Positions 657 to 13,900 of a stretch of DNA of 41,433 nucleotides are shown piece by piece. Numbering within the stretch: position 1 is the stretch's first letter; every line of letters starts with the position of its first letter. Position numbers and translations under genes: made by a program. This DNA comes from an uncultured Chloroflexales bacterium (GTDB lineage: Bacteria; Chloroflexota; Chloroflexia; Chloroflexales; Chloroflexaceae). The notes beneath the pieces were generated by a model. That model worked only from the letters and a program-made list of their open reading frames with translations. It was not told where the DNA came from and searched no databases. The stretch is from contig CALANA010000123.1 in NCBI GenBank assembly GCA_937925925.1, positions 1-41,433 of the forward strand, read 5' to 3'.

Positions 657-1181
657 TCACGTCTCCAGTCCAAACTCGCGTACGAGCTGCTGCACCCAGG
701 CCTTAATCCGTTCCGGTGTCAATTCTGGCGCATTATCATTGTCCAGCGCCAGTCCCATAAATTTGCCATCTTCCACGCCCCGCGATTCGAGAAAATCATA
801 GCCAGTGGTCGGCCAGTAACCAACGAGGTGTGCCCCACGTTCGCGAGCTTTCGCGCCAACAATCCCGATCGCATCCTGGTAGGTATCAGGATAGCCACCT
901 TCGTCCCCCAGCCCAAACAACGCCACCTGCTTGCCACTCAGGTTCAGCGTATCCATCTGTGGAAACAGCGTGTCCCAGTCCGACTGTAACTCACCAATAT
1001 TCCAGGTAGGAACACCGAGAATCAGCTTGTCATAAGCCTCTAGCTCGCGCAGATTGCAACGGGCAATGTCAGTGACGGTTACCAGACCAGGTTGCACCTG
1101 GTCAAATTCCTTCTGGATCAACTCCGCGGCCCTGGCTGTATTACCGGTATCACTCCCAAAAAATAACCCGATTCCAGACAT
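657..1181 (-). CDS. Flavodoxin
   Basis: MSGIGLFFGSDTGNTARAAELIQKEF (FMN phosphate-binding loop), GVPTWNIGELQSDWD and GLGDEGGYPDTYQDA are typical of long-chain flavodoxins. Confidence 0.93.
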   Translation of the reverse strand: MSGIGLFFGSDTGNTARAAELIQKEFDQVQPGLVTVTDIARCNLRELEAYDKLILGVPTWNIGELQSDWDTLFPQMDTLNLSGKQVALFGLGDEGGYPDTYQDAIGIVGAKARERGAHLVGYWPTTGYDFLESRGVEDGKFMGLALDNDNAPELTPERIKAWVQQLVREFGLET

Positions 1182-1977: not shown

Positions 1978-2364
1978 ATGCATGATTTCGAGCGACAGCG
2001 ACTGACACGCGATGACCCTGATTGGGCAGTGTTTAGCCTGGCCGATACCAGTATCCAGATCGACCTGGGACGAGCAGGATTGCTCCTTACAGAAGAAGCG
2101 TTTCGCGTGCTTACCAATTTTGTCACGATGACGATCAGTATTCCCTTACGAGGCACAGTTACTTCCACAACCACCCCGCAGTGCGTTATTGGTTACTGTC
2201 GCCAAACACATACACTGACACTAGGAGTTGAACAAACGCTTTTTCGCTTTCGTCCCACCGAATTTGAGCGGTTTGCACGGTTGTGCCAGCACGCCATCGA
2301 GTCTCTGGAATCAGCGACGCACAACGGTAGCCTGGCGCATACGCGAACGTTCACCCGTAATTGA
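1978..2364 (+). CDS. Small protein of unknown function, paralog A of a three-gene array
   Basis: WAVFSLADTSIQIDLGRAGLLLTEEAFRVLTNFV aligns by eye with paralogs B and C. The second half (CVIGYCRQTHTLTLGVEQTLFRFRPTEFERFARLCQHAI) looks like an internal duplicate. Confidence 0.75.
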   Translation: MHDFERQRLTRDDPDWAVFSLADTSIQIDLGRAGLLLTEEAFRVLTNFVTMTISIPLRGTVTSTTTPQCVIGYCRQTHTLTLGVEQTLFRFRPTEFERFARLCQHAIESLESATHNGSLAHTRTFTRN

Positions 2365-2535
2365 CAGGACGTACGCGGTCGCTCAAACAACATGTCTTTC
2401 GCCTTCGGCAGAGCGACACTTTTTGTGTTTTTCTCTCCACCTCTTCGCTTTCAGCGAAGTAGAGAGAAATAAAGCGATTTTTTCCGACTGCCACAGGCGA
2501 AAAGGCTGACTAACACCGCCACTACGCACGTCCTG
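2365..2535. mobile_element. MITE-like element, family 1 (CAGGACGTACGCGGT termini), between paralogs A and B
   Basis: Termini CAGGACGT.../...ACGTCCTG, flanked by 7-bp near-identical direct repeats TAATTGA (2358-2364) and TCATTGA (2536-2542). Internal hairpin around CTTCGCTttcAGCGAAG. Confidence 0.65.
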
Positions 2536-2553
2536 TCATTGAGGAGCAAGATA

Positions 2554-2949
2554 ATGCCAGAGAGCAGAACACATCGACTATTGGCGATGGATGGACGCGG
2601 CTGGGCTATAGTGCATCTAGCGGACGGAAACATTCTGCTCGATCTTGGTACCGTTGGTCTGATCTGCACCCCAGCCGATTTTACTACGCTGGCACACATG
2701 ATCGCCGCCGGGTTGGGATCATATGCCACTGGCGATATTATTGCCTGTGCTGGCCCTCGTCGGGTTTTGTACGCCGGTTCCTATCATGTCCTGATGTTAC
2801 TGTTTGACCAGACGATGCTGCGTCTGTTTGCCAGCGAAATGCCTACGCTGGCGGCCATGTGCCGCAAAGCGGTTGCAACCCTGGGGCCAATCACACCTGA
2901 ACCACCCTGCCAACCCACGCTGCCCATGTCGCAGTATCTGCCGAATTGA
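2554..2949 (+). CDS. Small protein of unknown function, paralog B
   Basis: GWAIVHLADGNILLDLGTVGLICTPADFTTLAHMI matches the pattern of paralogs A and C; GAGGAG ribosome-binding site upstream. Confidence 0.75.
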   Translation: MPESRTHRLLAMDGRGWAIVHLADGNILLDLGTVGLICTPADFTTLAHMIAAGLGSYATGDIIACAGPRRVLYAGSYHVLMLLFDQTMLRLFASEMPTLAAMCRKAVATLGPITPEPPCQPTLPMSQYLPN

Positions 2950-2964
2950 ATGGAGAAGAAACGC

Positions 2965-3387
2965 ATGTCGCAACAGCTTACGATCATCGCAAAATATACT
3001 GATTGGCAATGGATCGCGCAGTGTGAACACGGTATTCTGCATCTCACCTGGAATCGCATAACGATGCGCTTACATCCGGTTGAGTGTACGCGCCTGGCGA
3101 TCTTTCTGGAAGCCTGGTCTCCCGACGATACAGACGGTATTGCCTTTTTGCGTGATGAGAGTTTTCGGCTGATGCAGTCACCCTGTGGGCGAGTACAGTT
3201 CTGGTTGTATGACACCGGTTTGCAGTTGATGGTGCCAGATATGCTGGTTTTGCGTAAACTGGTGCAATATGCCGCCAGTTATGTCAACTCAATCAAGCCC
3301 GATCCAGTGTTCCCACGTTCGGTTGCCCGGTTGACTGACTGGTGTGAACTGCAAACACCTTTCGACGAAGCATGTTCGCGCAACTAG
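2965..3387 (+). CDS. Small protein of unknown function, paralog C
   Basis: DWQWIAQCEHGILHLTWNRITMRLHPVECTRLAIFLEAW has the same pattern; GGAG ribosome-binding site upstream of ATG 2965. Confidence 0.75.
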   Translation: MSQQLTIIAKYTDWQWIAQCEHGILHLTWNRITMRLHPVECTRLAIFLEAWSPDDTDGIAFLRDESFRLMQSPCGRVQFWLYDTGLQLMVPDMLVLRKLVQYAASYVNSIKPDPVFPRSVARLTDWCELQTPFDEACSRN

Positions 3388-3417: not shown

Positions 3418-3600
3418 GGTCATGCTGAGCGGAGCGAAGCATCGTGCGCCGCGAAGCATCGTGCGCCGCGATTGGTCATGCTGAGCGAAGCATCGTGCGC
3501 CGCGATTGGTCATGCTGAGCGAAGCATCGTGCGCCGCGATTGGTCATGCTGAGCGAAGCATCGTGCGCCGCGATTGGTCATGCTGAGCGGAGCGAAGCAT
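3418..3600. repeat. Tandem repeat, 34-bp unit GGTCATGCTGAGCGAAGCATCGTGCGCCGCGATT
   Basis: Units begin at 3474, 3508, 3542 and 3576 (last partial), plus a variant first unit at 3418. Confidence 0.9.
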
Positions 3601-3669
3601 CTTCCCTGCGGATGGGATATGATCCTTCGCGTCGCGCAGGATGCCAGTCGCGTCGCGCAGGATGACGTG

Positions 3670-3732
3670 CCCGCCGCGCCGGAGGCCTTACCCGCCGCGC
3701 CGGAGGCCTTGCCCGCCGCGCCGGAGGCCAGA
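3670..3732. repeat. Tandem repeat, 3 x 21 bp CCCGCCGCGCCGGAGGCCTTA
   Basis: Three contiguous near-identical copies. Confidence 0.9.
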
Positions 3733-3942: not shown

Positions 3943-4731
3943 ATGAATCGTGAGACCTATGCTGGTAACACACCCCGATGCCGCCAGTACCAGTACCACC
4001 CGGATCAACCAGTTGCCGCCGAGCGCGACTATCTCAAAATTATGTTCTACCTGAACGAGCGCGGCGAGTCGGCATCAATCACCCGCCTGGAACACTGGAT
4101 GCACGAATCTGCTCCCCGTGTCACCTATATTTTGCAGCAACTTGAACGCAAGGGGACGATCACCTGTACTCCTGCTGGCGAGATTGTGTTGACGGTTAAA
4201 GGCCAATGTTTAGTGCAACCGATCATTCGCCGCCAACGCTTGCTAGAGTGTTTCTTGTTGAATGTGTTACACATTCCCTGGTATCTGACCCATCGCGAAG
4301 CGATACGCCTTGAACCGTTTATTTCACCCGTGATGGAAGAGCGGGTCACATGTCTCGTTGGTGATGTTCAGACATGTCCGTATGGTAATCCCATCCCAGG
4401 TTGTCATCTGGCCCGACGTGGCACCATGCAATTACATACGGTGCCGCCAGATATGCGCTTCGTTATTACCCATATTGACGAAGAGGCACAAACCGATATA
4501 CAGCTTTTGCGCTGGTTCTTGACATGGGGATGTATACCCCAGACCACCCTGGTGGTCGTGGAAAAACAGACAGACCATTCGATTATTACCTGTCAGGCTA
4601 CACGCCAGAGTTTCATTGTGCCCCACCAGTCAGCCGCTTTTGTCTGGGGGGAGATTGTAGATGAAGGAGAGACTGATGATTACTGTCGCCAATCGGATTT
4701 TTGTGGCCCCGGAATACGCCGAGGCATTTGA
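3943..4731 (+). CDS. DtxR/MntR-family metal-dependent transcriptional regulator (start 3943 rather than the longer ORF start)
   Basis: RDYLKIMFYLNERGESASITRLEHWMHESAPRVTYILQQLERKGTITCTPAGEIVLTVKGQ (winged helix) and the RRQRLLECFLLNVLHIPWYLTHREAIRLEPFISPVMEERV dimerisation region. Codons before 3943 lie in repeat DNA. Confidence 0.85.
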   Translation: MNRETYAGNTPRCRQYQYHPDQPVAAERDYLKIMFYLNERGESASITRLEHWMHESAPRVTYILQQLERKGTITCTPAGEIVLTVKGQCLVQPIIRRQRLLECFLLNVLHIPWYLTHREAIRLEPFISPVMEERVTCLVGDVQTCPYGNPIPGCHLARRGTMQLHTVPPDMRFVITHIDEEAQTDIQLLRWFLTWGCIPQTTLVVVEKQTDHSIITCQATRQSFIVPHQSAAFVWGEIVDEGETDDYCRQSDFCGPGIRRGI

Positions 4732-5038
4732 GGAGCGCTTTCGTAGCCGGGCACGGCTGGTCGATACTATGCCCGGCTTTATTCTCAACCAGGTCTTACG
4801 TCCAGTCAATCCTGGTGATCCCTATATCATCCTGACGTTGTGGGAGACGCGGGCCCATTTTGATGCCTGGGTGCAATCCGATGCGTTTCGACAGGGCCAT
4901 GCGCGCTCTAATGCGCTACCAGCGGCTGCATTTACCGCACCTAACAGGCTGGAAATTCACGAAGTTATTCAAGATACCAGCCGGGCGCAACTTCAGATCG
5001 AGCCACGCGGCAAGCCGTTTCAGATACATGCAACATAA
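4676..5038 (+). CDS. Antibiotic-biosynthesis-monooxygenase/HmoA-IsdG-like protein (putative heme-degrading monooxygenase)
   Basis: MITVANRIFVAPEYAEAFEERFRSRARLVDTMPGFILNQVLRP...YIILTLWETRAHFDAWVQSDAFRQGH is the ABM fold signature; overlaps the 3' end of the DtxR ORF. Confidence 0.8.
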   Translation: MITVANRIFVAPEYAEAFEERFRSRARLVDTMPGFILNQVLRPVNPGDPYIILTLWETRAHFDAWVQSDAFRQGHARSNALPAAAFTAPNRLEIHEVIQDTSRAQLQIEPRGKPFQIHAT

Positions 5039-5099: not shown

Positions 5100-6170
5100 A
5101 TGCACATGATGAGTCCCTTGCCACGCACTATGTTCCCCTCCGGGGTGTTTTTTCTGACATTAAGCGTTCTCTGCCTGGGAACGATGCTGCTCTCGATTGG
5201 AATCGGCGCGATTGCGATCCCACCGCTTGCCACCATTGCCATCCTCCTGCAGCAGATCGGGATCAGCATCGAAGCCCCGACCACGGTGCAGCAAGAGTCA
5301 CTCTTGCTCATCGTGCGGTTACCGCGTGTTCTTGTGTCAGCGCTGGTCGGAGCAGGACTGGCCGTCGCCGGAGCGCTCTTGCAGGGCGTGTTTCGCAATC
5401 CACTGGTTGATCCTGGACTAATTGGCGTCAATAGTGGCGCTGCATTTGGGGCAGTGGTTGTACTGGCGCTGGGGGTAACCCCACTGGGCATGTTTACTCT
5501 GCCCATAGCATCGTTTGTGGGCGGAGTTGCCACCACACTGCTGGTCTATCGTCTGTCATTGCGGCAAGGATATATCGATGTGATGACTATGCTACTGGTT
5601 GGACTGGCACTCAATGCCATTCTGGTTGGACTGACCGGCATATTGACGTTCACGCGCGGCGGGGGCAATCCCGCAATGGGTACGCTGTCTTTCTGGACGA
5701 TGGGCAGCCTGACGGGTTCTCTGTGGCAAACAGTGATCAGCGTTGCCCCTTTGATACTGGTAGGCAGCCTCCTGGCTCCAACCCTGGCGCGTGCGCTGAA
5801 CATGCTGGCGCTGGGGGAACAAGAAGCCCGGCATCTTGGGGTACAGACTGAACAGGTGACCCGACGGGCAGTGGTGGTGGCAGCACTCCTGGCAGGCGCG
5901 AGTGTTGCCGCTGCTGGCGCAATTGGTTTTATTGGCTTGATTGTGCCGCATCTGGTACGGCTCATACTTGGCCCGGATCATCGACGGGTTATTCCGGCGT
6001 CAATGCTGGGCGGTGCCACACTGCTTACGCTGGCCGATCTGCTGGCACGCACCGTCGCCGCTCCACTCGAAATGCCGGTGGGACTGGTAACGGCGTGCAT
6101 CGGTGGTCCGTTTTTTCTGGTACTTATTTTGCGAACACCAGCTTCTTTCGGTAGTTTCTTCCGTGCGTAG
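5100..6170 (+). CDS. FecCD-family iron/heme ABC transporter permease
   Basis: LPRVLVSALVGAGLAVAGALLQGVFRNPLVDPGLIGVNSGAAFGAV and AAGAIGFIGLIVPHLVRLILGPDHRRVIPASMLGGA are FecCD signatures. Confidence 0.95.
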   Translation: MHMMSPLPRTMFPSGVFFLTLSVLCLGTMLLSIGIGAIAIPPLATIAILLQQIGISIEAPTTVQQESLLLIVRLPRVLVSALVGAGLAVAGALLQGVFRNPLVDPGLIGVNSGAAFGAVVVLALGVTPLGMFTLPIASFVGGVATTLLVYRLSLRQGYIDVMTMLLVGLALNAILVGLTGILTFTRGGGNPAMGTLSFWTMGSLTGSLWQTVISVAPLILVGSLLAPTLARALNMLALGEQEARHLGVQTEQVTRRAVVVAALLAGASVAAAGAIGFIGLIVPHLVRLILGPDHRRVIPASMLGGATLLTLADLLARTVAAPLEMPVGLVTACIGGPFFLVLILRTPASFGSFFRA

Positions 6171-6385: not shown

Positions 6386-7417
6386 ATGGGACACATACGA
6401 AACAGGGTTACATTGGTCTGGCTAATCATCGTTGCAATCATCCTGATCTTGCCAGCTTATCATCAAGGCATGACTGCATCGAGAGTCAATGCCCAGCAAA
6501 CGCCGGGAGCGAATACCACCGTTTATTTGCCCTTGATTATCGGCCCTAATCCGTTTCAAGGGCCACCCCAACTGCCGGCCATCGTCACGGATATGAATGG
6601 AGATACGGTTACGATACAATCGGTTGAGCGCATTATTGGTCTCAGTGGTGATATTACCGAGATTATTTTCGCGTTGGGGTTGGGCGACCAGGTCGTTGCC
6701 GCCGACATTAGCGCGACCTATCCTGCACAAGCCCGGCAACTGCCGAAAATTGGCTACCAGCGCGACTTGAATGCCGAGGCGATTATCAATTTCCGTCCCA
6801 CAGTAGTCATCGGTAAGCGAGGTGCCGGGCCACCGCCAGTACTCGTCCAACTGCGTCAGGCCGGACTAACGCTGGCGATGACCAACGATGGGGTGAGTCT
6901 CGATACCCCGGCGGAAAAGATACGGTTTGTTGCCCAGGCGCTCGGTGTGCCCGCACGCGGAACCATGTTAATTGAGCAACTTGAGGCCGATTTCGCTGCA
7001 GCCGAGGCAGCACTTCAGCAGGTCAATAACCAACCCAAACCACGGGTGATCTTTCTCTATCTGCGCCAGGGTGAGGAAGGCAATCAGCGCCTGGTGTTTG
7101 GGGCCAACACGGCCACCAGCACGATGATCACCGCTGCCGGCGGTATTGATGCCGCGGCGGAGATTGGTATTCGCGGCGTTTTACAGCCAATTACCACCGA
7201 AGCCCTGATTGCGGCCCAACCAGATGTTATCCTGGTGTTCGAGTCTGGATTGGCGGAGATCGGTGGCGAGGAAGGCCTCCTGGCTCTGCCTGGTATTGCG
7301 CAGACCCCGGCCGGACAAAATCGCCGGATTGTGGCTATGGATGGGCAATATCTAGCCGGTATGAATCCACGGACTGGTAAGGCGTTACTCGACTTGATTG
7401 GCTTGCTGTATCCCTGA
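6386..7417 (+). CDS. Heme/siderophore ABC transporter substrate-binding protein (HmuT-like)
   Basis: Signal peptide; VERIIGLSGDITEIIFALGLGDQVVAADISATYPAQARQLPKIGYQRDLNAEAIINFRPTVVIGKRGAGPPPVL resembles HmuT-type hemin-binding proteins. Confidence 0.85.
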   Translation: MGHIRNRVTLVWLIIVAIILILPAYHQGMTASRVNAQQTPGANTTVYLPLIIGPNPFQGPPQLPAIVTDMNGDTVTIQSVERIIGLSGDITEIIFALGLGDQVVAADISATYPAQARQLPKIGYQRDLNAEAIINFRPTVVIGKRGAGPPPVLVQLRQAGLTLAMTNDGVSLDTPAEKIRFVAQALGVPARGTMLIEQLEADFAAAEAALQQVNNQPKPRVIFLYLRQGEEGNQRLVFGANTATSTMITAAGGIDAAAEIGIRGVLQPITTEALIAAQPDVILVFESGLAEIGGEEGLLALPGIAQTPAGQNRRIVAMDGQYLAGMNPRTGKALLDLIGLLYP

Positions 7418-7532: not shown

Positions 7533-8804
7533 ATGATACCGGTTACGAACAGACAGTGCCAATACTGGGTAGTATGCATCGGTAGCATTTGCTGCCTGCT
7601 GATGGCAACCAGTCTGCGCAGTGTAACCGCACAGGATGCCCCGGATCGTACCACCCATGTCGGAGTGGTCGTGGATGCTGGCAATGGTACGGTTGAAACC
7701 AGTTGTCTTGAATTGGGGCCAGGCGGCCAGGCGGATGGGGTGCAGATTCTGGCTGCTACGGGATTCACTACGCAGCAGATCAGTGATCGCGAAGAAGTCA
7801 GGATGTGCATGATCAACAATCAGGGCTGTCGCGTTGATGCTGGCGAAGCCTGTTTCTGCCAGTGCGATGATCAAACATGCTATCAGTGGATCTACTACGA
7901 ACTGGTCAACGATACCTGGCAGCGACGCTGGTCGGCCAGCAGCCATACCATAACACCGGGGATGCTCGTCGGCTGGGTCTGGGCAGACACCCAGGCTGTA
8001 CCGGTTATGCAGCCGGCATTGCGCACGTTTGAGCAGGTGTGCGCAAGCGCTACCCCCACGCCAACCGCATCGCCAACTGCCACGCACACCAGCATTGCGA
8101 CTGAGACCGCGACGCCCACCGAGACCGCGACGTCGCTGCCAGAAGAAACACCCACCGCCACAGACATTCCAATCGAAACACCGACACCAACTGTCACCGA
8201 AACACGACCAACTACAGTCCCCGACACAGAACAGAGTGCGGCAGAGACAATGCGCAACGTTGTTTATTTGCCGTTGATCATCAATGCATCCCCGACAAAT
8301 GATGATGCGTTTAATGATCTCTCATCCAATCCATATCCAGATCCTGATGCATTGCCAGATCTGCCTGATCCACCTGAGCCGGATATTGTGCCAACACCAA
8401 TGCCAACGCCAACGCCAACACTCACCCCTAGCCCGACGTTAGAGCCTACCTCGGCGATTATTATTGAGTTTGAGCGACCAACCATGGAACCGCTTGCGCT
8501 ACCAGAACTTGATCGCCCACCGCCGCCCGCCGCTGCCGGAATACTACCGGGACAATCCGCACCTGACAGCACATCCACCTCGATGCCCAACCAGGCACCT
8601 GCCATGAGCAACGAAGAAATAGACGCCTATCCCGGCACGGTGCCCCCGGATCAGCGTTCATCTGCACGCGATGCGTGGTGGCTTCTTGGCCTACTCTTAC
8701 TGATCGCAATTATCTATAGTGGCCTGATCATCTTTCTCTACACACGACAGCAGCATGAGTTTGGGGCCGCCGACCTGGCGTTCAATAGTTCTGATGAGCA
8801 ATAG
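7533..8804 (+). CDS. Secreted/anchored Cys-rich protein with Thr/Pro-rich stalk and C-terminal TM helix
   Basis: N-terminal hydrophobic segment; THVGVVVDAGNGTVETSCLELG...CMINNQGCRVDAGEACFCQCDDQTCYQWIYYELVNDTWQRRW; long TP-rich linkers; C-terminal WWLLGLLLLIAIIYSGLIIFLYTRQQ. Confidence 0.8.
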   Translation: MIPVTNRQCQYWVVCIGSICCLLMATSLRSVTAQDAPDRTTHVGVVVDAGNGTVETSCLELGPGGQADGVQILAATGFTTQQISDREEVRMCMINNQGCRVDAGEACFCQCDDQTCYQWIYYELVNDTWQRRWSASSHTITPGMLVGWVWADTQAVPVMQPALRTFEQVCASATPTPTASPTATHTSIATETATPTETATSLPEETPTATDIPIETPTPTVTETRPTTVPDTEQSAAETMRNVVYLPLIINASPTNDDAFNDLSSNPYPDPDALPDLPDPPEPDIVPTPMPTPTPTLTPSPTLEPTSAIIIEFERPTMEPLALPELDRPPPPAAAGILPGQSAPDSTSTSMPNQAPAMSNEEIDAYPGTVPPDQRSSARDAWWLLGLLLLIAIIYSGLIIFLYTRQQHEFGAADLAFNSSDEQ

Positions 8805-8919: not shown

Positions 8920-9708
8920 TCATCCCCGCAACCCGCGCTCGCGCAGGTGGGCATCGAGCCAGGCCGCATCATCAGCACTGAGGGCCGGCGGGGGCGGATC
9001 GGCGCGGTAGTTTATCCGCCGTTCGTAGCGTGCGCTGCGGTAGATCTGGCGCAAAGCTTCCCCAAGATCAAGCACGACATCTGGATCGGGACGACGCAAC
9101 GGCACCGGCACGGGATGGATCGGTGTACGTAACGACAACGGCCAGACTTCAAGGCGTGGTCGGCGTTCTGCCCGGCTCAGGAGTATAAAGTAGGGAGCGT
9201 CGGGCAAGGGTGTGGCAGTCTGCGGGCGCTTCCCGTTGCGCAGCAGGTCAATCTCCAACAGATGTGCCTCACTGCGAAACAGTTCCTGACGCTTTTTCTC
9301 GTAGGCATCAGCCCCATCCACACCAGGGCGCTTATTGACGGGTGAAAGCAGTTCGATAGCAGTAACAAGTGCTTCATTGCCAACCGTGCGGATTTCCAGG
9401 CGGGCGTAGCGCGTGGGAACTTGCATAGTAGCCGTGACGACCAGCGGCGCAGGAGCAACGGTTGTCAAGTTGCTTGCCGTAGCCGGTAGATCCGTTTCGA
9501 GGATGCCCACATCTGGCACAACCGCCAGGCGCACGGGTGTGATCTCCAGGTTTTCAAAGGCGACATACGGGGTGATAACAGCAGTATAGTGCGGCTGCAA
9601 CTGGGCCTGGATTTGATCGCACAACACCGTAGTTAACCGGTGATGGACATCCGGCCAGAAGCCAGGAGCTTCGAGATAGGGATCCATACCTGGAAAAGGC
9701 AGTTCCAT
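8920..9708 (-). CDS. DUF4058 family protein
   Basis: MELPFPGMDPYLEAPGFWPDVHHRLTTVL and a C-terminal YRADPPPPALSADDAAWLDAHLRERGL. Confidence 0.9.
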   Translation of the reverse strand: MELPFPGMDPYLEAPGFWPDVHHRLTTVLCDQIQAQLQPHYTAVITPYVAFENLEITPVRLAVVPDVGILETDLPATASNLTTVAPAPLVVTATMQVPTRYARLEIRTVGNEALVTAIELLSPVNKRPGVDGADAYEKKRQELFRSEAHLLEIDLLRNGKRPQTATPLPDAPYFILLSRAERRPRLEVWPLSLRTPIHPVPVPLRRPDPDVVLDLGEALRQIYRSARYERRINYRADPPPPALSADDAAWLDAHLRERGLRG

Positions 9709-9794: not shown

Positions 9795-10586
9795 TTACGT
9801 CCACAACCCGCGCTCGCGCAGGTGGGCATCGAGCCAGGCCGCATCATCAGCACTGAGGGCCGGCGGGGGCGGATCGGCGCGGTAGTTCATCCGCCGTTCG
9901 TAGCGCGCACGGGCATAGATGTGGCGTAGCGCCGTCGTCAGATCAAGCAGAACGTCGGGGTCAGGCGACAACAACGGGATCGGCAGGGTCGGCAGTGGCT
10001 CCGTGAGCGCCACCGGCCAGATCTCGGAAACACGCAGGTGGTCGGGGCGAGCCCGGTTGACCAGGCAAACGTAGGCGGCGTCTAGCGGCGGATCTTCGAC
10101 CTCCCAGCCAGGACGCTGTCCACGTCGCAACAGATCCAGCTCGACCAGATGACAGGGCGACAATAACAGGCGTTCACGCTTGTGGCGATACTGTTCCAGC
10201 CCGCGCCCACGTTTGCTATCCGGTGAAAGTATCTCGATGGCTGTTACGAGGGTACTATCGCTCGTCAGGCGGATCTGTACTGTACGCGAGCGCGTGCGTT
10301 CGGTGGGCAGTGCAAGCCGCTGGAGGGGTGCGCTGATGACCGGTGTGACTACCGCCGTCGGCGATTGTGGCTCACATGCAAGCACGGCGGCATCAGGATA
10401 GACCTCAATCGCAACCATGATACCAACTTCGTCAAGTGATGCACGCACTTCAACATCGGCAAAATATTTTGGGCTGAGGCACGTATTCAACAGGGTCATC
10501 ACCTCTTCGGCAAGATGATGATGAAAACTGGCCCAATATGTCGTGCTTTCCAGATAGGGATCCATGCCAGGAAACAGTGGTTCCAT
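9795..10586 (-). CDS. DUF4058 family protein (tandem paralog)
   Basis: MEPLFPGMDPYLESTTYWASFHHHLAEEVM; C-terminus nearly identical to the neighbouring paralog. Confidence 0.9.
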   Translation of the reverse strand: MEPLFPGMDPYLESTTYWASFHHHLAEEVMTLLNTCLSPKYFADVEVRASLDEVGIMVAIEVYPDAAVLACEPQSPTAVVTPVISAPLQRLALPTERTRSRTVQIRLTSDSTLVTAIEILSPDSKRGRGLEQYRHKRERLLLSPCHLVELDLLRRGQRPGWEVEDPPLDAAYVCLVNRARPDHLRVSEIWPVALTEPLPTLPIPLLSPDPDVLLDLTTALRHIYARARYERRMNYRADPPPPALSADDAAWLDAHLRERGLWT

Positions 10587-11115: not shown

Positions 11116-12162
11116 ATGACCACATTCACCGCCAGATCCCAACTTGCTCGCACCGAACGCCTGACTCGCGCCCGCACACTGCTAGTTGTGGGCTTGCCGA
11201 TCTGCCTGGGCCTGCTTGCGCTGGCGATGATGAGCAGCATCGCCTTCGGTGCCGCCGACATCGCCCCAGCCGATGTATGGGCGGCGCTGGTCAACTTTGA
11301 TGCCAGTTCGACCAATCATCTGATCATTCGCACCTTACGGGTGCCACGGGCGGTGATTGCAGCACTGGTGGGGGCTGCGCTAGGGGTGGCTGGTGCCCTG
11401 ATGCAGGGCATTACCCGCAATCCTATGGCTGACCCGGGTATTCTGGGGATTAACACTGGTGCGGCGCTGGGCGTTGTTGGTGCGGTCTTTTTACTCAAGA
11501 TCTCGTCGCTCACGCTTTACGCGCTCTTTGCCTTTGCAGGTGCCGCACTGACGGCCAGCGCGGTCTATACGCTCGGCTCACTGGGGCGGGGTGGGCCAAC
11601 TCCGCTCAAGATTACCATCGCCGGTGCAGCACTCACCGCGCTCCTCTCATCACTGACCACGGGTGTCCTTATTCTCAACCAGCGCACGCTGGAGGAGGTG
11701 CGCTTCTGGCTGGCTGGCTCAGTTGCCGGACGCGATCTGAACCTGCTGCTGCAAGTGACGCCCTACCTGGGGATCGGGTTGCTGGTTGCGCTGGCATTGG
11801 GCCGCCAGATTACCACACTGTCGCTCGGTGATGATGTGGCGCAAGGTCTCGGCCAGCGCACTGGCTGGGTCAAGGGTCTGGCGGCGCTGTGTGTGGTGCT
11901 GCTGGCAGGCAGTTCCATAGCAGTCGCCGGGCCAATCGGCTTTGTCGGGCTGGTTATTCCGCATGCAGTGCGCTTCTTTGTTGGCGTGGATTACCGCTGG
12001 ATTCTGCCCTATTCAGCACTGGCGGGTGCCACTTTCCTGGTTGCGTCCGATGTAGCCGCACGGCTGGTGCTACGACCGACCGAAATGCCCGTCGGTGTGA
12101 TGACGGCGCTGATCGGTGGGCCGTTTTTCGTCTATCTGGTGCGGTGGAAGGTGAAGCGCTGA
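11116..12162 (+). CDS. FecCD-family iron-siderophore ABC transporter permease
   Basis: [48 protein letters not shown] and [32 protein letters not shown]. Confidence 0.95.
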
Positions 12163-12200
12163 TACGGGTGGGTCGGTACTTTTTTTCTAACGAGGAGATC

Positions 12201-12881
12201 ATGCAAACACCCTGGATCACCGTTCGGACGCGCCGGTTTTCGATGCGCATTGATCGGCGTGTGCCGCCAGTGCTGCTGCTCACCTTGCTCACAACCCTGG
12301 CCGTGATGGTCATTAACATGGGGGTAGGTGAGTATCCAATTGGCCCGCTTGATGTGATGAAAACTGTCCTGCGTCTGCCGACAGACAACAGCGATTATGA
12401 TTTTATTGTCAACACGTTGCGCCTACCGCGTATGCTGGTTGCAGCGCTCGGCGCAGGCTGGGCGGTGAAGCGCTTCGGACGTAAGGCAGCCCTGGTCAGC
12501 TTTGCGCTGCTTCAAGCCGTAACTCTGCTGGTGCTGCTTGGCCCGGCGTACGGCAATACTAGCGATCTGGTCGTTGCGTTGGCGGTGGGGGCGATCTTCT
12601 TTGGCTATAGTCCAGCCTTTACCGTACTCTCGACCGTGATGATGGACAAGACGCGCCAAAACACAGCCGGCACCGACTATACCGTCCAGTACAGTGCCAT
12701 GTCGCTGGTAAGTTTTGCTGTGGGTGGGTTAGGCCTGACGCTAGCCGGGGTGCTTGGCTATGTCACCACAATTATCATTGCCGCTACGTGCGGGCTACTG
12801 GGAGCTGGCGTCGTACTGACGCTCTACCATCCGGCCAAAGCAGAGACTGAGACGGTGCTAGAAGGCACGTTTAGCGCATGA
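12201..12881 (+). pseudogene. In-frame chimera: N-terminal ~85 aa of a FecCD permease joined to the C-terminal part of an RhtX/FptX-like MFS siderophore transporter
   Basis: [42 protein letters not shown] is FecCD. It switches at ~12450 to [27 protein letters not shown]...[31 protein letters not shown], which is MFS/RhtX-like. Confidence 0.8.
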
Positions 12882-13251: not shown

Positions 13252-13900
13252 TTATGATCCGTCTTCCTTCGGAAGATACACAATGTGCGGGCGCCGGGTC
13301 TGCGGGTTGATATGCACTTCAGCATGCACACCGTAGACAGCTTCAATGTACACCGGAGTCAACACATGCGCGGGGGGGCCAACTGCAACTACCTTGCCTT
13401 GATGCAGTAAACACAACTGATCGCAATACATTGCAGCCAGGTTGAGGTCATGGAGTGCGGCGATGGTCGTGACGCGGAGCCGCTTTACCAGCGCCAATAC
13501 TTCCATCTGATAGCGAATGTCGAGATGGTTCGTTGGTTCATCAAGCACCAGGCAACGTGGTTGTTGTGCGAGCGCACGTGCGATCAACACCCGCTGCTTT
13601 TCGCCACCCGACAGGGTACGAAACAAGCGCTGGGCACATGTGTGCATGTTTACCCGTGCGAGCGCATCGGCGACAATCTGCTGATCCTGTGTATTCGTGC
13701 GCTCCAGGGTGTGCTTGTGTGGGTTGCGGCCAAGCAACACACACTCCCACACCGTGAAGTCAAAGTCGCCTGGTCGCTCTTGAGTGACAACCGCCATCCG
13801 TTGTGCCAGATCACGCGGCGAACACTGCCACACGGCCATAGCATCAAGGGTAATTGAGCCAGCATGCGGCTTAAGTACACGGTAGATTGTGCGCAGCAGC
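13252..13900 (-). pseudogene. 5'-truncated FepC/BtuD-type ABC transporter ATPase lacking Walker A
   Basis: [27 protein letters not shown]...[31 protein letters not shown] (signature and Walker B present). The frame ends upstream exactly where GxxGxGKST would be expected. Confidence 0.8.

Follow-up and report, generated by a model that had tools for sequence, protein, structure and literature searches.

A family of small proteins with a C-terminal asparagine at iron and heme loci of Chloroflexales

Introduction

Proteobacteria, Firmicutes, and Actinobacteria have well-studied iron regulons; those of filamentous anoxygenic phototrophs have hardly been studied. In actinobacterial DtxR/IdeR regulons, importers and iron-sparing genes are preceded by an operator of the form TTAG-N6-CTAA (the IdeR box). 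Heme uptake operons of the HmuTUV/HmuQ kind group an ABM monooxygenase with FecCD, periplasmic-binding-protein (PBP), and ATPase genes; to our knowledge, no small proteins like those treated below have been described from them. PUR repeat proteins, such as human PURA (8cht), carry two successive bbbb-alpha repeats per chain, with the helix after the sheet. The precursor peptide of microcin C (MccA) ends in asparagine. It is reported to be modified C-terminally with a nucleotide (PMC6495379). In Bacteroidetes, DUF2023 accompanies flavodoxin in an iron stimulon (PMC10434189); by name, it is a different family. A literature search on iron regulation in Chloroflexus gave nothing relevant.

The window analyzed here is a stretch of 41,433 nucleotides from an uncultured Chloroflexales bacterium. 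A first-pass annotation of its letters had proposed that three small open reading frames (P1, P2, and P3) are divergent paralogs of no named family, internally duplicated, and plausibly involved in iron or heme metabolism. In this study, we describe the family to which they belong, its genomic surroundings, and its possible role.

Materials and methods

Members of the family were searched for in 84 Chloroflexales genomes using profiles of the P3 type and of the P1/P2 type, in a phylum-wide sample using a pooled profile (A3), and in plasmid records. Very weak matches in seven other Chloroflexota genomes (G178, G248, G192, G232, G396, G158, and G295) were pieces of longer frames and were excluded from the members. 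Sequences were compared with Pfam, NCBIfam, and PDB entries. Models were built with AlphaFold and compared with known structures using Foldseek.

Results

P1, P2, and P3 are paralogs beside iron and heme genes

The coordinates first given for P1, P2, and P3 were all correct, and Pfam matches were obtained for all four neighbors described with them, namely the DtxR-like regulator, the monooxygenase, the FecCD permease, and the HmuT-like protein. Three features had not been remarked on: the flavodoxin gene just upstream on the opposite strand (657-1181), two palindromes (at 1253 and 1906), and the common C-terminal asparagine. The genes are as follows.

657-1181, minus strand: long-chain flavodoxin FldA, a divergent neighbor and iron-starvation marker (TIGR01752, 2e-59; NF006736 over cut-off)
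1978-2364, plus strand: P1, 128 aa, P1/P2 type, C-terminus ...TFTRN (Asn codon 2359-2361)
2554-2949, plus strand: P2, 131 aa, P1/P2 type, C-terminus ...QYLPN
2965-3387, plus strand: P3, 140 aa, CEHG type, C-terminus ...ACSRN
3943-4731, plus strand: DtxR-family regulator with FeoA-like C-terminal domain (PF02742, 7e-18)
4661-5038, plus strand: ABM/HmuQ-like heme monooxygenase (PF03992, 1e-22; HmuQ NF053649, 2e-14, below cut-off)
5100-6170, plus strand: FecCD-family permease (PF01032, 6e-88)
6386-7417, plus strand: PBP-type substrate-binding protein (PF01497, Peripla_BP_2, 1e-28)

P1 and P2 matched each other in pairwise comparison (phmmer E ~1e-12; 30% identity with E 8e-11 in a search of the whole 5.2-Mb genome). 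P3 is too divergent for a pairwise match to either; its profile aligned with that of the P1/P2 type end to end over 109 columns (hhalign E 9e-6, probability 83%). The proposal that the three are homologous thus stood, directly for P1 and P2 and through profile-profile comparison for P3. No characterized family was matched by the three proteins or their relatives in Pfam, NCBIfam, or PDB sequence searches, the last giving chance matches only, in agreement with the earlier 'no named family'. The PF03992 domain (ABM, HmuQ/IsdG) was absent from P1, P2, and P3 and present only in the neighbor at 4661-5038. A possible resemblance of the family's N-terminal pattern to DUF6686 (PF20391) is a lead only; no profile match was found in the window's own genome, and none in hmmscan of the members.

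P3 and the DtxR gene are 555 bp apart. They are separated by two arrays, one a 34-bp tandem array (3451-3593, 4.2 copies, 99% matches) and the other of 21 bp (3654-3729), which may interrupt co-transcription. Elsewhere in the window, the contig starts with the end of a CRISPR array (6-156, three 28-nt repeats GCATTGCCCACGAGCGTGAAGCAGCGAT with 33-34-nt spacers). Two adjacent DUF4058 proteins are encoded on the minus strand (8920-9708 and 9795-10586). A second FecCD-type permease (11116-12162), what looks like a fused permease/MFS fragment (12144-12881), and a partial ABC ATPase on the minus strand (13252-13797) follow.

The family has several types and occurs in two phyla

The P3 profile matched in 34 of the 84 Chloroflexales genomes and the P1/P2-type profile in 15. 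The CEHG type, to which P3 belongs, has the signature MC..TxLA...IAQCEHGTIHLxW. A fourth, acidic type (PGRLIGxAPDGDLRLVWD...) was detected with the P3 profile. An initial scan of genome contigs had given one close relative only.

In the phylum-wide sample, one distant Chloroflexota genome (G088) had a clear member (E 8e-16 with the pooled profile A3; E 9e-33 with profile A5, which contains the G088 sequence itself). Plasmid records yielded homologs in Deinococcus taeanensis (E 2e-6), D. gobiensis, Thermus oshimai (E 2 only in tblastn), and T. brockianus. A profile built from Chloroflexota alone recovered all four Deinococcota homologs among the 684 ORFs of those loci (E 1.4e-17, 2.7e-16, 1.9e-12, and 8e-6). 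On sequence grounds, this is a so far undescribed and unnamed family kept in Chloroflexota and Deinococcota. Two degraded copies were seen, each reflecting gene decay or an assembly break: the closest relative has a 42-aa relic similar to the end of P1 (L071, 7998-8123), and L097 has an N-terminally truncated CEHG-type gene (7859-8128).

Relatives are linked to iron and heme genes

At six loci of related Chloroflexales genera, P1/P2-type genes lie inside clusters of the order FecE-PBP-FecCD-[member]-CcmC; an ABM monooxygenase is also present, together with DtxR in most and a CEHG-type gene in some. CEHG-type genes adjoin flavodoxin, siderophore-type PBP, Fbp transporter, Feo, or DtxR genes at ten loci, in one of which (L085) flavodoxin is flanked by two of them. 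The G088 member has a DtxR gene on one side and, on the other, a pair consisting of a lipoprotein and an FTR1 iron permease. In D. taeanensis, the homolog opens a SIP-PBP-FecCD-ATPase operon next to a dihydroxybenzoate siderophore cluster, and in D. gobiensis, it stands ahead of flavodoxin. On the T. oshimai and T. brockianus plasmids, the order is ABM-DUF3386-(hemin) PBP-permease-ATPase-[homolog]-PBP. Linkage to iron genes, traced by profile search, is thus conserved in other Chloroflexales genera, a distant Chloroflexota family, and Deinococcus/Thermus.

Around P1/P2-type genes, iron genes were significantly denser in the inner 3 kb (40/76) than at 3-8.5 kb (18/82; p 7e-5). The same inner-outer comparison gave no significant difference for the CEHG type (37/116 vs 19/89, p 0.11), in part owing to the length of the clusters around these genes. 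The fourth type showed no inner-outer enrichment; at six loci and others, it pairs with a Dps ferritin and/or a 2Fe-2S ferredoxin-like gene, not with uptake genes. At four Chloroflexales loci (L082, L084, L109, and L110) and at the trio of the closest relative (L071), no iron gene was found nearby.

Flavodoxin is rarer than other iron genes, so its link is the more telling. It occurs in 17 copies in 13 of the 84 Chloroflexales genomes, and for 6 of the 17, a family member is no more than 2.2 kb away. The CEHG type is present in 12 of the 13 flavodoxin genomes vs 5 of the 71 others (Fisher 7e-10, uncorrected for phylogeny). Around genes of the CEHG and P1/P2 types and Fbp/flavodoxin genes, a small cupin and a YwiC-like membrane protein also recur (six loci).

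A palindromic candidate operator precedes family, importer, and flavodoxin genes

Two palindromes lie in the region between the flavodoxin gene and P1.

1253-1266, no strand: TTAGTATATACTAA, candidate operator without mismatch, 78 bp ahead of the flavodoxin gene
1906-1919, no strand: TTTGTATGTACTAA, candidate operator with two mismatches to TTAGTATATACTAA, 66 bp upstream of P1

TTAGTATATACTAA is a DtxR-like palindrome of the form TTAG-N6-CTAA, in agreement with the DtxR/IdeR half-site; the copy at 1253-1266 is the only exact one in the window's 5.2-Mb genome. Allowing up to two mismatches, 32 matches were found in the first set of loci (618 kb), compared with 0-5 for each of 104 other palindromes from half-site permutation and 0-2 for Markov shuffles. 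The boxes lie some 40-150 bp in front of genes for FecE, flavodoxin, FbpA, and CEHG- or P1/P2-type proteins; they are also found ahead of DtxR and FeoA. Four of the six genome-wide boxes of genome G198 fall within 45 kb around its cluster, and two of the four in G118, presumably Chloroflexus aurantiacus, at its CEHG-type locus, where the gene spans 406,305-406,709. Across whole genomes, boxes with up to two mismatches were not more numerous than those of a reversed-pattern control, so single weak boxes elsewhere are not to be trusted; only the clustering of boxes at iron loci is non-random.

A common palindromic candidate operator, a feature of DtxR-type regulons, is therefore found upstream of family, importer, and flavodoxin genes. 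Given this box and the co-location described above, the family very probably belongs to a DtxR-type iron regulon, in which the regulator would bind the box and respond to iron. The iron or heme role first suggested for P1, P2, and P3 gains support from both context and palindrome; 'heme' holds for the P1/P2 type, and the CEHG type points more generally to iron starvation.

A radical-SAM family (PF04055, weakly PhpK/HpnR-like) was observed in 42 of the 84 Chloroflexales genomes, with copies at L072 (904-2145), in the window's own genome (G000:C57:25951-27171), and at L085, L143, and L148. Several copies, including that of the window's own genome, carry a palindrome of the TTAGTATATACTAA type upstream, and the radical-SAM family is likely another member of the iron regulon.

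The proteins are predicted to contain two bbbb-alpha repeats

When the N-terminal and C-terminal halves were compared as profiles, they matched with E 1.9e-8 (probability 94%) for the whole pooled family and more weakly for each type alone (E 0.01 and 5e-4). The AlphaFold model of P3, built from 45 sequences, is bbbb-alpha-bbbb-alpha (pLDDT 86.6), with repeats at residues 5-49 and 61-109 and a disordered, low-confidence tail at 111-140. P2 without its tail is likewise modeled as two bbbb-alpha repeats (pLDDT 93.5, pTM 0.84). The internal duplication noticed at first was thus borne out, with a unit of four strands and one helix in place of the strand-strand-helix then proposed. The P2 and P3 models share the same fold, against the possibility that the proteins are not homologous.

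For both models, the top Foldseek matches were the PUR repeats of PURA and two cyanobacterial proteins, with E 5e-3 to 8e-3. The duplicated bbbb-alpha fold of PUR repeats is present in the models, at moderate Foldseek scores. No PUR sequence similarity and no Pfam match were found for any member, and core charge ranges from neutral to acidic (pI about 6; 4.3-5.6 in the fourth type, with net charge to -8). Because sequence similarity is absent and the cores are not basic, the likeness to PUR proteins is taken as a weak fold resemblance between models, not as family membership.

The same data bear on whether the proteins are nucleic-acid-binding regulators that would use a PUR-like fold on ssRNA or ssDNA for post-transcriptional iron sparing, like Bacillus Fbp proteins or an RNA chaperone. 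Human PURA repeats I-II as a top structural match (E 8e-3, prob 1.0; TM up to 0.58) and the cyanobacterial 2nvn and 2it9 among the best ones would fit such a function. The core charge argues against single-strand binding by a basic sheet, Foldseek E never fell below 1e-3, and the topology is shared by proteins for which no nucleic-acid binding is known (among the matches listed is the SsgA-like 3cm1). We therefore regard nucleic-acid binding as improbable.

The CEHG type carries a Cys/His motif

One feature of P3 is a candidate ligand site.

3022-3051, plus strand: C-E-H-G-x-x-H-x-x-W motif of P3 (C20, H22, H26, W29), candidate metal/cofactor site

C20 and W29 never vary across 19 sequences of the CEHG type and its Deinococcota relatives, and G23, H26, and H/C22 are nearly invariant; H22 is replaced by Cys in Deinococcus and T. 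oshimai. On the first hairpin, these residues could plausibly form a site for a metal or cofactor. Neither the P1/P2 type nor the fourth type has this C-x-[H/C]-G-x-x-H-x-x-W motif; hence metal binding is not possible as a family-wide function.

A role of the family proteins as iron- or heme-binding adaptors is tentatively suggested, at clearly less than even odds. They may also be accessory subunits or adaptors that work through protein contact only and bind no ligand, such as a DtxR co-effector or an importer brake, with the asparagine as a docking or stability signal. The diversification of types without a common metal motif would suit contact alone, as would the members adjoining DtxR at four loci (L077, L081, L083, and L141); the retention of the motif in the CEHG type across two phyla does not, and no single partner gene is common to all loci. 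We consider this alternative doubtful.

The last residue is almost always asparagine

P1, P2, and P3 all end in asparagine. This residue is the last one in 55 of 59 Chloroflexales members vs 6 of 463 neighboring genes, in 58 of 63 members when G088 and the Deinococcota sequences are included and one 42-residue relic is left out, and in 22 of 26 clusters below 45% identity. It is kept in D. gobiensis (...YALN), T. brockianus (...RHLN), and G088 (...FSTN), and not in D. taeanensis and T. oshimai. The tail ahead of it varies in length and sequence and is predicted to be disordered. Both codons (AAT and AAC) and all three stops (TGA, TAG, and TAA) occur, so a nucleotide-level explanation was dropped; selection acts on the terminal amino acid itself. 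An intein-like reading, in which a Cys close to the N-terminus pairs with the final Asn, was rejected, the P1/P2 and fourth types having no initial Cys and the fold not being Hint.

The terminal asparagine hints at a recognition or modification step in the iron economy. It might serve a dedicated enzyme or receptor of the bacterial iron economy as substrate or as recognition code, though this is rather doubtful; we know of no response to iron starvation for which a C-terminal single-residue signal has been described. On the model of microcin C, the tail might be adenylated, amidated, oxidized, or trimmed, giving a protein-borne metallophore or signal. Such substrates might show what is seen here in two phyla, a near-invariant last residue on disordered tails that are not conserved otherwise; one apparent exception, in L011, traces to a short indel that, compared with L010, carries the frame beyond ...TIWN. 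In the neighborhoods inspected by eye, however, no MccB/ThiF-like or other modifying enzyme was recognized beside the genes, and the co-regulated radical-SAM family, also present in Chloroflexus genomes with no family member, is thus no dedicated partner. C-terminal modification of this kind appears unlikely.

Discussion

The best overall explanation, to which we assign a probability of roughly 0.6 from sequence-based evidence, is that the proteins form an iron-starvation-induced cytosolic family for iron and heme handling, with the asparagine as a docking or processing signal. When Fe(II) is scarce, a DtxR-type Fe(II) repressor would leave the TTAGTATATACTAA box, and P1, P2, and P3 would be made together with flavodoxin and the heme/iron importers. 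The products would work in the cytosol as small adaptors or binding proteins for iron or heme entering the cell, the CEHG type acting through its C-x-[H/C]-G-x-x-H-x-x-W hairpin and the P1/P2 type next to the heme permease and a heme-handling protein like CcmC. The flexible tail with its asparagine may be a signal read by a partner or modifying enzyme.

What emerges is a candidate DtxR-type regulon of Chloroflexales, with an operator and an unannotated protein family kept across two phyla. A near-absolute C-terminal asparagine on otherwise unconserved tails is a sharp clue to a recognition or modification step missed by annotation.

Among described systems, PURA has the same succession of two bbbb-alpha repeats; unlike PURA, the family here shows no sequence similarity to it, a TM of only 0.4-0.58, a neutral or acidic core, a disordered tail ending in asparagine, and an iron-gene context. 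The cyanobacterial 2nvn and 2it9 are of the same size and are best or near-best matches of P2 (2nvn, E 5e-3, prob 1.0, TM 0.50), but their identity to the family is 18% at most; being of unknown function, they do not explain it. MccA shares the terminal asparagine, found here in most clusters, but is a 7-residue peptide, whereas the members are folded proteins of 83-164 residues with no modifying enzyme recognized alongside on inspection. HmuTUV/HmuQ operons are resembled in the ABM monooxygenase with FecCD/PBP/ATPase genes around family members. With actinobacterial DtxR/IdeR regulons, the loci share TTAG-N6-CTAA ahead of importers and iron-sparing genes and a DtxR gene inside the cluster; unlike them, the operator has the central hexamer TATATA, the phylum is Chloroflexota, and the targets include a new family.
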